From: Silanimonas sp.
Lineage (GTDB): Bacteria; Pseudomonadota; Gammaproteobacteria; Xanthomonadales; Xanthomonadaceae
Direction of reading: 5' to 3'
Assembly (NCBI GenBank): GCA_018334015.1
Contig: JAGXTI010000014.1
Location: 222,671 to 286,670 of the forward strand
Length of the DNA: 64,000 nucleotides
The notes under the pieces are model-generated. The model saw only the letters and a program-made list of their open reading frames with translations. It was not told where the DNA came from and ran no database searches. A program made the position numbers and the translations under genes. This document shows, piece by piece, positions 16,761-64,000 of this stretch (positions are counted from its first letter, which is position 1; each line of letters starts with the position of its first letter).

Positions 16761-17552
16761 ATGAACCGCATCGACGCCCGCCTTTCCGCCCTCCGCGCCG
16801 CCGGCCGGAAGGCCCTCGTGCCCTTCATCACCGCCGGCGATCCGTCCCGCGAGGTCACCGTGCCGGTGATGCACGCGCTGGTCGAAGGCGGTGCCGACCT
16901 GATCGAACTCGGCGTGCCCTTCTCCGATCCGATGGCCGACGGCCCGGTCATCCAGAAAAGCTCCGAACGCGCCATCGAGCGCAAGGCCGGCTTGGGTTTC
17001 GTGTTCGAGGCCGTGCGCGCATTCCGCAGCCGCGACACCGAAACGCCGGTGGTGCTGATGGGCTACCTCAACCCGGTCGAGATGCGCGGCCTCGAACGCT
17101 TCGCCGACGAAGCCGCTGCCGCCGGTGTCGATGGCGTGCTGCTGGTTGATCTGCCGCCCGAGGAAGCTGATCCGGTGCGCACTGCGCTGACCGCGCGCGG
17201 CCTGCACCTGATCGCCCTGGTGGCGCCGACCACCACCGAAGCCCGTCTGGCGCCCTTGCAGCGCCATGCGCAGGGCTACCTGTACTACGTCAGCTTCGCC
17301 GGTGTGACCGGTGCCGCCAAGCTCGACACCGTCGATGTCGCCGCCCGTGCTGCCGTGGTGCGGGCGCACAGCCCGGTGCCGGTGCTGATCGGCTTTGGTA
17401 TCAAGGACGCCGCTTCGGCGAAGGCGCTGGCCGCCCACGGCGACGGCGTCATCGTCGGCAGCGCACTGGTGCAGGCCCTGGCCGAAGCGGCCGATCCGGC
17501 GGCGGCGGCGCGGGCTTTCCTCGCAGCGATTCGGGTGGGGCTGGACGGCTGA
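16761..17552 (+). CDS. trpA: Tryptophan synthase alpha subunit
   Basis: 263 residues, a TIM barrel that cleaves indole-3-glycerol phosphate and channels indole to TrpB. Key segments are LVPFITAGDPSREV, LIELGVPFSDPMADGPVIQ (catalytic Glu and Asp), VLLVDLPPEEAD, LIALVAPTTTEARL, GYLYYVSFAGVTGA and VLIGFGIKDAASAK, then VIVGSALVQAL. The ATG at 16761 gives the family N terminus (MNRIDARLSALRAAGRKALV). It is followed by the long repeat-filled gap before accD. Confidence 0.98.
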   Translation: MNRIDARLSALRAAGRKALVPFITAGDPSREVTVPVMHALVEGGADLIELGVPFSDPMADGPVIQKSSERAIERKAGLGFVFEAVRAFRSRDTETPVVLMGYLNPVEMRGLERFADEAAAAGVDGVLLVDLPPEEADPVRTALTARGLHLIALVAPTTTEARLAPLQRHAQGYLYYVSFAGVTGAAKLDTVDVAARAAVVRAHSPVPVLIGFGIKDAASAKALAAHGDGVIVGSALVQALAEAADPAAAARAFLAAIRVGLDG

Positions 17553-17559
17553 GATCTCA

Positions 17560-17830
17560 GCGCTGACCGCCGCGACGGCCAGGGAGCCGCGGCGGCCTTG
17601 AGCCATGCCCGGAGCGGCACCCCCGCTTCGGCAGGCCGGGGGCCTGCGGCGGACTCGGGCCGGTAGCTGTGCGGCAAGAAACCCGACGGGCCGACCGAAG
17701 GGCGCATCCTTGGCGCCCTCGGTCGGTGCGCCCGTCCGGGGCGCACCCTGCGGGCCTGGCGTCTGATCGCCGTGCTGGCCCTCGAAATCCGCCGCAAGCC
17801 CCCAGCCTGCCATGCGGGGTGCTTCGAGGC
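17560..17830. repeat. Structured intergenic repeat, copy 1 (element A)
   Basis: Shares its whole layout with 18103-18300: a start block AGGGAGCCGCGGCGGCC, GCCATGCCCGG, CAAGAAACCCGA, a long hairpin, a second hairpin, CCCTGCGGGC, TCTGATCG and GGCCCTCGAAA. The long hairpin pairs 17691-17698 with 17719-17726 and 17700-17705 with 17713-17718, with one bulged A. The second pairs 17727-17733 with 17739-17745. This copy carries an extra segment of about 57 bases before CAAGAAACCC. Open frames across it exist on both strands but differ between copies, so I do not call a protein. Confidence 0.8.
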
Positions 17831-17841
17831 TGCTGCGGTGA

Positions 17842-18010
17842 TGGAGTGAGGAGCACGAAGTCCGTCTCACTTCGTATCCTGAGTCGGATGGTTGTCTGCG
17901 AGCGCCGCGCCAGCGCGGCCTGATGGACAGCGAAGCGAGCCAAGGAGGGCGAGCGTCGGCGAATGCGGAGCGGGACGCGAAGCCTGAGCCGTCGCGTCCG
18001 CAGGACTCGC
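17842..18010 (+). repeat. Dispersed repeat C, copy 1
   Basis: About 170 bases, starting TGGAGTGAGGA, that align end to end with the reverse complement of 63832-64000. The last 110 bases are the most alike; they include GAGCGCCGCGCCAGCGCGGC, GACAGCGAAGCGAGCCA and GAATGCGGAGCGGGACGCG. It contains a hairpin GCCGCGC-CA-GCGCGGC (17904-17919). It sits between elements A and B, whereas the second A/B pair downstream has no such segment, so it looks inserted. No frame is conserved strongly enough to claim a gene. Confidence 0.8.
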
Positions 18011-18063
18011 GCCAGCCGGCGCGACCTTTCGGGCCGTGCTCCGACCGGTCAGGGGCGAGCACT
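18007..18063 (+). repeat. Short hairpin repeat B, copy 1
   Basis: Begins with the perfect hairpin TCGCGCC-AGCC-GGCGCGA (18007-18024), followed by CCTTTCGGGCCG, then a diverging tail with GTCAGG and GCGA. The same block recurs at 18325-18382. The CCTTT(C) after the stem gives a short T-run, so the hairpin could terminate plus-strand transcripts. Confidence 0.65.
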
Positions 18064-18102
18064 CCTTACCATGGTCTGGCCGGGACCCAGAATTCCGCGG
18101 CG

Positions 18103-18300
18103 CTCACCGTCACGGCGGGCAGGGAGCCGCGGCGGCCTCGGGCCATGCCCGGATCGCAAGAAACCCGAAGGCCGGCACAAGGGCGCGTCCTGCGCCCTGT
18201 GCCGGTGCGCCACCTCCTGTGGCGCACCCTGCGGGCTGGGCTTCTGATCGATCGGCCGGCCCTCGAAAGCCGCCGCGATCCCCCTGCCCGCCGTGCGGCG
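18103..18300. repeat. Structured intergenic repeat, copy 2 (element A')
   Basis: Second copy of the element at 17560-17830, same orientation, lacking the 57-base extra segment. The long hairpin pairs 18172-18179 with 18198-18205 and 18181-18186 with 18192-18197, keeping the bulged A at 18180. The second hairpin pairs 18206-18213 with 18219-18226. Three base pairs of the long stem and one of the second differ from copy 1 by changes on both sides that restore pairing. Confidence 0.8.
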
Positions 18301-18324
18301 GCGCATCAAGACTCGGGCTGAGCG

Positions 18325-18382
18325 TCGCGCCAGCCGGCGCGACCTTTCGGGCCGCGCCCCGATCAGTCAGGCGCGACCACCC
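18325..18382 (+). repeat. Short hairpin repeat B, copy 2
   Basis: Repeats the TCGCGCC-AGCC-GGCGCGA hairpin (18325-18342) and the following CCTTTCGGGCCG of copy 1. It lies 24 bases after element A', about 85 bases before accD. A and B therefore seem to form one unit that is present twice here. Confidence 0.65.
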
Positions 18383-18466
18383 CAGCCCAGCAGCCGCGAC
18401 CGGAATGCCTGCTGCGCCGCGAAGCACCCGCGCTAGACTAGCTGCCCCGATCCACCAGGGCTTTCC

Positions 18467-19339
18467 ATGAGTTGGTTGAACAAGCTGAAACTCGGCGGTA
18501 TCCGCACCCAGGGCGGCGGCAAGCGTGGCGTCCCCGAAGGCCTTTGGGAGAAGTGCGAGAACTGCGGCGCGGCGCTCTACGCCCCCGAAGTCGACACGCA
18601 CCAGCATGTCTGCCCGAAGTGCAACCATCACATGCCGATCGGCGCCCGCGAGCGCATCGCCCATTTCCTCGATGCCGACAGCTTCGAGGAGGTCGGCGCG
18701 CACCTCGAGCCGGTCGACGTGCTCAAATTCCGCGACCAGAAACGGTACGCCGACCGCATCAAGGCCACCCAGAAAGCCACCGGCGAGCGGGATGCCCTGA
18801 TCGCCGGCGCCGGGCGCCTGATGGGCCTTCCGGTCTGCGTTGCCGCCTTCGAGTTCCGTTTCATGGGCGGCTCGATGGGCTCGGTGGTGGGCGAGCGTTT
18901 CGCGCTGGCGGCCGAACGCGCGCTGGCCGACCGCAGCGCGCTGGTGTGTTTCTCCGCGACCGGCGGCGCCCGCATGCAGGAAGGCCTGTTCTCGCTGATG
19001 CAGATGGCCAAGACCTCGGCCACCATCGCCCGCCTGCGCAAGGCGGGCGTGCCCTACATTTCAGTGCTGGCGCACCCGACCACCGGCGGTGTTTCGGCTT
19101 CGCTTGGCATGCTGGGCGACATCAACATCGCCGAGCCCAAGGCGCTGATCGGTTTCGCCGGCCCGCGGGTGATCGAGCAGACCGTGCGCGAGACCCTGCC
19201 GGAAGGCTTCCAGCGCAGCGAATTCCTGATGGAGCACGGCACGGTCGATGCCATCGTCGACCGCCGCCGGATGCGGCCGAAGATCGCCGCCCTGCTGGCC
19301 CTGCTGGGTCGCCAGCCGGCCCCGGTCGAGGCGGCCTGA
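18467..19339 (+). CDS. accD: Acetyl-CoA carboxylase carboxyltransferase subunit beta
   Basis: 290 residues. With AccA it transfers the carboxyl group from carboxybiotin to acetyl-CoA to make malonyl-CoA. The N-terminal zinc ribbon is [20 protein letters not shown] followed by PKC (four Cys). The crotonase-fold core includes [58 protein letters not shown] and [20 protein letters not shown]. The ATG at 18467 gives the family start MSWLNKL. A TAGACT box at 18434-18439 could be a -10 without an obvious -35. glmM starts on the base after its stop. Confidence 0.98.
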
Positions 19340-63771: not shown

Positions 63772-63831
63772 GCGCCTGCCGACGCGCCTGCCCTCGCGCC
63801 TGCCGACGCGCCTACCCTCGCGCCTGCCTTG
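63772..63831 (+). repeat. 12-bp tandem repeat, five units
   Basis: GCGCCTGCCGAC and GCGCCTGCCCTC alternate: units start at 63772, 63784, 63796, 63808 and 63820, with a single base change in unit 4 and a diverged end in unit 5. It begins 34 bases after the dehydrogenase stop and touches the dispersed repeat that follows. No spacers or direct-repeat pattern of a CRISPR array. Confidence 0.8.
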
Positions 63832-64000
63832 CGCGACCTGCGGACGCGACGGCTCAGGCTCCGCGTCCCGCTCCGCATTCGCCGCCGCTCGCCCTCCATG
63901 GCTCGCTTCGCTGTCCGCGAGGCCGCGCTGGCGCGGCGCTCGCTGACGGGCATCGGCCGCAGGATGCGAAGCGAAGACGGGCTGCGTGATCCTCACTCCA
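63832..64000 (-). repeat. Dispersed repeat C, copy 2 (may continue past the window)
   Basis: The reverse complement aligns with 17842-18010 along its full length, from TGGAGTGAGGA at the window edge to CCGCAGG near 63840. The blocks GAGCGCCGCGCCAGCGCGGC and GAATGCGGAGCGGGACGCG are identical. It is in the opposite orientation, 46 kb from copy 1. I see no gene in the 263 bases after the dehydrogenase stop. Confidence 0.8.

Follow-up and report, generated by a model that had tools for sequence, protein, structure and literature searches.

A structured repeat family in the trpA-accD gap of a Lysobacteraceae genome, probably a far relative of TwoAYGGAY

Background

What occupies the 914 nt (17553-18466) between the end of trpA at 17552 and the start of accD at 18467, and at which level, RNA or DNA, are its hairpins maintained? 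The window analysed here, a stretch of 64,000 nt, comes from a draft assembly of 2.25 Mb, in which it lies on contig 14; the family, Lysobacteraceae, is assigned from AccD, whose best match, at 73% identity, is in a Lysobacteraceae MAG. Within the gap are a hairpin element, A, present twice, and a second module, B (Table 1). The original prediction held the element to be either a structured RNA or a hairpin-dependent mobile or REP-like sequence, and not a protein gene. Here, I show that A and B belong to a family of structured repeats whose reality is strongly supported; that prediction is upheld, its mobile or REP-like half being favoured by the copy number, the empty sites and the spread of the element. 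The explanation preferred, with moderate confidence, is that A is non-coding, belongs with the dispersed palindromic repeats of the REP/MITE type and is far kin of TwoAYGGAY; both its spread and the upkeep of its stems would take place mainly at DNA hairpins.

Results and discussion

Two copies in the trpA-accD gap

The core of A is modelled as a stem around three hairpins, P2 (bulged), P3 and P4, whose loops would be fixed and whose stem letters would be free to change as long as they pair. In the P2 stem of copy 1, CCGACCGA (17691-17698), a bulged A (17699) and GGGCGC (17700-17705) face GCGCCC (17713-17718) and TCGGTCGG (17719-17726); in copy 2, CCGGCACA (18172-18179), the A at 18180 and GGGCGC (18181-18186) face GCGCCC (18192-18197) and TGTGCCGG (18198-18205). 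The bulged A is kept in both copies, the three outer-arm positions at which they differ (4, 6 and 7) each have a compensating change in the partner, and one more compensated pair is found in the next hairpin downstream, all as had been read from the gap at the outset. The spacing of about 540 nt given then holds for the 5' conserved stretches (540 nt) but not for the hairpins, which are about 480 nt apart; likewise, A followed by B does occur twice before accD, but the second B is a fragment only, which extends to 18383 and is cut if the region is ended at 18300, as was done originally.

Table 1. Coordinates of the A and B copies and of their parts in the window
Feature	Position	Strand	Basis
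A element copy 1	17607..17831, modelled core 17648-17795	+	alignment; 135.6 bits, E 3.7e-29
Outer arm 5' side, A copy 1	17630..17653	+	inverted repeat I1, 92% complementary to 17788-17811
Outer arm 3' side, A copy 1	17788..17811	+	inverted repeat I1
P2 hairpin, A copy 1	17691..17726	+	bulged A 17699; loop TCC (GGA on - strand); pair counts
P3 hairpin, A copy 1	17727..17745	+	loop TCC at 17735-17737
P4 hairpin, A copy 1	17746..17754	+	loop TGC closed by C-G
B module copy 1	17900..18030	+	nhmmer matches to B
A element copy 2	18091..18313, modelled core 18131-18276	+	alignment; 97.9 bits, E 2.9e-20
Outer arm 5' side, A copy 2	18111..18124	+	inverted repeat I4, 100% complementary to 18282-18295
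Outer arm 3' side, A copy 2	18282..18295	+	inverted repeat I4
P2 hairpin, A copy 2	18172..18205	+	bulged A 18180; pair counts
P3 hairpin, A copy 2	18206..18226	+	loop TCC
P4 hairpin, A copy 2	18227..18235	+	sequence
B fragment copy 2	18320..18383	+	direct repeats D2 and D7
Further B module, where window and contig end	63830..63941	-	nhmmer E 2.9e-19

Folded as RNA, both strands of both copies are better than their shuffles (z from -3.8 to -6.1; 0 of 200 shuffles as good), and the same is true when they are folded as DNA (z from -3.5 to -6.3, a level reached by no more than 1 shuffle in 200). Known Rfam RNAs were also sought in the window, where only a tRNA was found.

A repeat family in the genus

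The search of related genomes by covariance model, suggested along with the original prediction, bore it out. At E 0.01 the model R1 (146 positions, 31 pairs), built from a 32-sequence MAFFT alignment, matches 58 copies of A in the genome from which the window comes (hereafter the source genome), the two of the gap being thus far from alone, and 13, 13 and 1 further copies in the congeners G002, G003 and G007, respectively; at the same threshold it matches 0 copies in the congeners G001, G004, G005 and G006. A blastn search with window copy 2 gives 42 matches in the source genome. This copy is strongly diverged, with 97.9 bits versus 122-143 for the other full-length copies of the source genome, and is the most diverged of them apart from one gapped copy on contig 34 (75.6 bits). 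The true number of copies in the source genome is probably above 58, because the assembly breaks in A/B repeats and 18 of the 58 copies lie at most 450 nt from a contig end.

Tandem copies of A are frequent; they are spaced by about 500 nt and have B between them. Neighbouring genes were called by a simple custom gene caller, and among the 65 copies for which both neighbours were called, 27 are antisense and 16 sense to them, 17 lie between convergent and 5 between divergent genes. With B, nhmmer gives 57 matches in the loci examined; GCCNNGGANGGC is present in 52 of the 56 B copies of the source genome that align over at least 120 nt, and seven B-like matches occur in the G002, G003 and G007 loci. 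Since A carries TCC and B carries GCCNNGGANGGC, the GGA motifs of the two lie on opposite strands.

Many contigs of the source draft break within A/B repeats; the window and its contig also stop inside a B module (63818-64000). A passenger of plasmids or phages was considered as well and rejected, for copy 1 (225 nt), run against 72,556 plasmid records and 50,697 of phages, gives 0 blastn matches at E 1e-5. In the titles and opening parts of abstracts in the literature, no published description of the A repeat was found.

Covariation and fixed loops

An alignment of 84 copies (83 distinct), fitted to R1, comprises 57 of the 58 copies of the source genome, 13 each of G002 and G003 and the single one of G007; the 58th, the last fragment on contig 40, lies outside the loci searched and was left out. 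In these copies, which are not independent of each other, standard pairs make up 98.0% of the 2543 pair cells versus 85.7% after shuffling, cells changed on both sides number 243 versus 56.4 and are spread over 17 of the 31 pairs, and the covariation score is 0.313 versus 0.099 (sd 0.006) after shuffling and 0.031-0.085 when the partners are displaced by 1-3 columns. Of the five measures, only the number of further pair types is close to its shuffled value (30 versus 28.2; 101 of 500 shuffles as high). Two-sided changes were already present at 17 of the 31 pairs in the 32-sequence MAFFT alignment that was the source of the structure and preceded the model. A P2 pair may serve as an example, being AU in 56 copies, CG in 16, GC in 7 and UA in 4, with 0 mispairs.

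Throughout the alignment the arms change almost only with compensation, while TCC (GGA on the opposite strand) is kept in both the P2 and P3 loops of 84/84 copies and the P4 loop is TNC in 84/84. Across genera, too, the letters of the core loops and junctions stay the same and those of the stems vary. Between copies, loops and junctions differ by indels of 1-2 nt and are thus ill-suited to a conserved protein frame, in keeping with the non-coding nature claimed for the element. Covariation had been taken as the mark of selection on base pairing; the stems do covary, but covariation alone does not prove selection on RNA pairing.

A discrete structured RNA, be it an sRNA or a cis element, made from the + (TCC) strand and multiplied by duplication, would account for the covariation of the stems and for the P4 loop, since c(TNC)g, as RNA, reads as a UNCG tetraloop; UNCG-type loops are what Weinberg et al. 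built on, in a passage of their paper, when arguing for the RNA nature of the STAXI motif (PMC2864571). Such an RNA is nonetheless quite unlikely here, for A has no gene association, its neighbours and orientations vary, and its copy number ranges from 0 to 58 within one genus.

Insertion, turnover and private arms

A sits between genes, and the comparison of genomes suggests that it is copied or inserted at new sites, can be lost again and can change its orientation. The gap of 914 nt between trpA and accD measures 79 nt in G002, 79 nt in G003 and 66 nt in G006; the comparison is uninformative in G001 and G005, where a different gene precedes accD, in G004, whose contig starts before accD, and in G007, which has no full match. 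In the empty gaps of G002 and G003 (L186, L187), a terminator-like palindrome directly follows the trpA stop.

G002 and G003 are 91-95% identical over their longer aligned flanks, and at each of the five orthologous loci compared both genomes carry elements. At two of them the inner core differs in 0 of 101 and 1 of 99 columns, with both outer arms wholly different; at a third, the A-B block has the opposite orientation, and the remaining two have elements of other subtypes or orientation. By eye, no clear target duplication was seen at the five aligned loci. Three more pairs were compared, two of them G002/G003 and one G002/G007; here the left arms are alike, and 1-3 of 143-144 core columns differ.

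In the congeners, the arms are private palindromes. In 24 of the 27 congener copies the 40 nt on either side of the core pair with each other at z <= -3, the exceptions having -2.7, -1.8 and +1.5; over 30 nt, a left arm of a congener copy scores 17.6 of 30 against its own right arm, versus 7.2 against the left arms of other copies and 6.1 when shuffled. In the source genome, the left arms are alike between copies (mean score 20.1 versus 8.0 shuffled). The borrowing of arms from elsewhere was discarded as a source, since one G002 arm, searched in 8 genomes with at most 3 mismatches, was found at its own locus only.

Arms that are private and perfect and are replaced whole around an unchanged core, together with stem changes that are Watson-Crick only, are what one would expect if A were subject to neither selection nor recognition, i.e. 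if old palindromes had their arms copied into each other by template switching and covariation were a by-product. This is very improbable: copying alone leaves unexplained why loops stay constant from genus to genus around variable stems, in the 84 copies the loops do not vary as the stems do, and the dispersed copies require a spreading step. Unlikely, too, is a self-renewing palindrome, in which the conserved core would turn the adjoining DNA into a long and perfect inverted repeat by self-primed arm copying, so that private arms could be replaced wholesale with the core unchanged, and which, when read, would scatter GGA hairpins of the RsmA/CsrA type through the genome.

Base pairing at the RNA or the DNA level

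Over 28 of the 31 pairs, the R1-type cells comprise 2289 Watson-Crick pairs, 3 G-U, 10 A-C and 25 others; the three pairs left out of this count are helix-end or isolated ones, and their G-U cells (43, 25 and 56) are mostly one state common by descent to the copies of the source genome. In 83 distinct rows of the related Xanthomonas type (see below), from other genera, there are 1705 Watson-Crick pairs, 41 G-U, 30 of them at loop edges, 5 A-C and 45 others. As a small control, the stems of 5 tRNAs have 4 G-U in 60 cells. Along these lines, the scarcity of wobble pairs speaks against a structured RNA, as do inverted pairs of elements and private arms, unexpected of a single-strand RNA gene, whereas the excess of G-U over A-C in the Xanthomonas-type rows leans slightly to the TCC strand being an RNA and the UNCG-like P4 loop would suit one.

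Switching mostly from one Watson-Crick pair to another suits, though not decisively, hairpins in which every pair has to hold, either as DNA or on each of the two strands. Because the stems switch almost only between Watson-Crick pairs and the arms are private palindromes, a process acting on DNA has at least the same likelihood as one acting on RNA. The preferred DNA-level explanation would have the hairpin of A read as folded DNA, single-stranded or cruciform, by a putative enzyme, its stems being kept perfect either by the requirements of that reading or by the rewriting of one arm from the other; when transcribed, A may also bind RsmA/CsrA via its GGA loops.

Relatives in other genera and TwoAYGGAY

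Across the family (198 genomes), the genera g7, g15, g16 and g17 match R1 weakly (E about 3e-4); these matches show the same three hairpins and are here referred to as the Xanthomonas type. From 12 of them a second model, R2 (73 positions), was built; a joint alignment of R1 and Xanthomonas-type sequences was left out of model building, its P2 being out of register. With at most 25 candidates per genome scored, R2 finds the three-hairpin design in at least 91 of 196 family genomes and 36 of 54 genera; with 13 per genome scored, it does so in at least 21 of 369 genomes of the class and 18 of 272 genera. Moreover, it recovers 5 copies each in G002 and G003, which were not used in its building (best E 1.9e-7 and 1.1e-6), and has no match in the source genome. 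A partner on the opposite strand lies within 700 nt at 39 of 74 Xanthomonas-type loci, some of them overlapping.

The TwoAYGGAY RNA, RF01731 in Rfam, is among the motifs listed in part of Weinberg et al. 2010 (PMC2864571). Its cut-off (43) is passed by both members of one inverted pair, L302 in G581, with 53.1 and 51.5 bits, and among the 20 partnered Xanthomonas-type loci scanned it matches below cut-off in four further loci. The link is an indirect one, a chain of likeness that runs from the type of the source genome to that of the congeners (R1), to the Xanthomonas type (weak R1, R2) and to RF01731. RF01731 has no match in the window at the gathering cut-off, nor at E 5 in the L031 array, seven G002/G003 loci and one G007 locus; it is because these source-genome and congener loci lack a match that A, although probably related at a distance to the TwoAYGGAY repeats, is called their far kin and not a member. 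MicroRNA-type matches below threshold on the arrays and on relatives were taken as chance.

A shares with TwoAYGGAY a pair of adjacent hairpins whose loops are of the GGA type, if A is read on the other strand than in the original description; the stricter CA(N)GGAYG is present twice in only 1 of 57 source-genome copies (see below). Beyond that, it has outer arms, a third hairpin and a tandem or inverted arrangement, and while Rfam files RF01731 as cis-regulatory, A is a dispersed repeat in many copies.

GGA loops and the RsmA/CsrA network

The main rival, though rather unlikely, is that A is a decoy for RsmA/CsrA scattered through the genome, whose - strand GGA hairpins, in 3' UTR or intergenic transcripts, would titrate RsmA. 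Several GGA hairpins are a feature that A and B share with the RsmA/CsrA-sequestering RNAs (CsrB, RsmX, RsmW and the RsmU of Xanthomonas), and distant kin of A, in partnered Xanthomonas-type loci, give weak matches to RsmW and RsmV, below cut-off. A decoy would also agree with the GGA in both loops of 84/84 copies on the - strand, with GCCNNGGANGGC in 52/56 B copies, and with inverted A pairs, which present GGA hairpins in either reading direction. The SELEX consensus, as given in part of PMC7652899, is RUACARGGAUGU, with the GGA in a hairpin loop; close to it is CA(N)GGAYG, which is matched at least twice by 26 of 27 congener copies and, among the 83 distinct rows of the Xanthomonas type, by 62. 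TwoAYGGAY has previously been matched to the CsrA motif, according to a section of PMC4333381, and an RsmA-sequestering 3' UTR RNA is described for Xanthomonas in a portion of PMC7694677. CsrA itself is encoded in the source genome (G000), G002 and G003.

Several findings argue against a decoy. Two strict CA(N)GGAYG occur in only 1 of the 57 aligned copies of the source genome, 14 of which have none, so that these copies fit the full consensus poorly; A has long stems of high stability, in contrast to the four or fewer contiguous pairs of most SELEX winners, as reported in a part of PMC7652899; in the window, trpA and accD have the direction of the TCC strand, the orientation to genes being mixed overall; and A, in dozens of scattered copies with no transcript known, differs from the sequestering RNAs in these respects too. 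In the genomes compared, CsrA shows no association with the element, being found in 22 of 27 genomes with it versus 20 of 23 without; the five element genomes that lack CsrA are drafts of more than 300 contigs. In G529, a genome with four R2-element copies, six CsrA-family matches were observed.

Known repeat systems and implications

MITEs are small non-autonomous transposons whose ends are common to all copies. A resembles them in being small and dispersed, with inverted-repeat ends and presence/absence polymorphism, yet it has no known parent transposon, and its ends differ locus by locus in the congeners, whereas in the source genome the arms are alike between copies. Likewise, A is intergenic, palindromic, in tens of copies and often inverted or clustered, as are REP, BIME and REPIN sequences (REP as described in part of PMC2817692), but it does not appear to have their palindrome of 20-30 nt headed by GT(A/G)G, its core being about 146 nt with three hairpins; the letters GTAG, counted at any position, occur in the core of 18 of 84 copies. 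A further difference from REP/RAYT systems is the Y1 transposase (PF01797), with 0 matches in the 8 genomes of the genus and matches in 5 of 14 control genomes; a RAYT/IS200 partner enzyme was accordingly rejected for these 8 genomes. Both this result and the absence of a clear target duplication, by eye, at the five aligned loci weigh against the preferred explanation.

Should the preferred explanation hold, a motif that stands in Rfam as an orphan and a possible cis-regulator would be the core of a dispersed palindromic repeat, present in almost one in two of the Lysobacteraceae genomes sampled; DNA hairpins and arm-to-arm rewriting could give rise to strong covariation between the genes of bacteria; and a testable link would exist between repeat elements and the RsmA/CsrA network.

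Some Xanthomonas-type loci have additional repeats. An AT-rich palindrome of the form CTTTCTTTTGGTTACTTTTCTTTG adjoins three-hairpin units (L333 860-910 and 1087-1130; L335 800-850 and 968-1010), and a text search of papers for strings like it found nothing. REP-like palindromes, of the GTAGGAGCGGC.. and GTGGGAGCGGC.. types, lie between inverted three-hairpin units (L333 960-1035; L342 905-980), and CAACAG-like simple repeats stand as inverted repeats on both sides of the Xanthomonas-type composite (L333 620-680 and 1306-1348).
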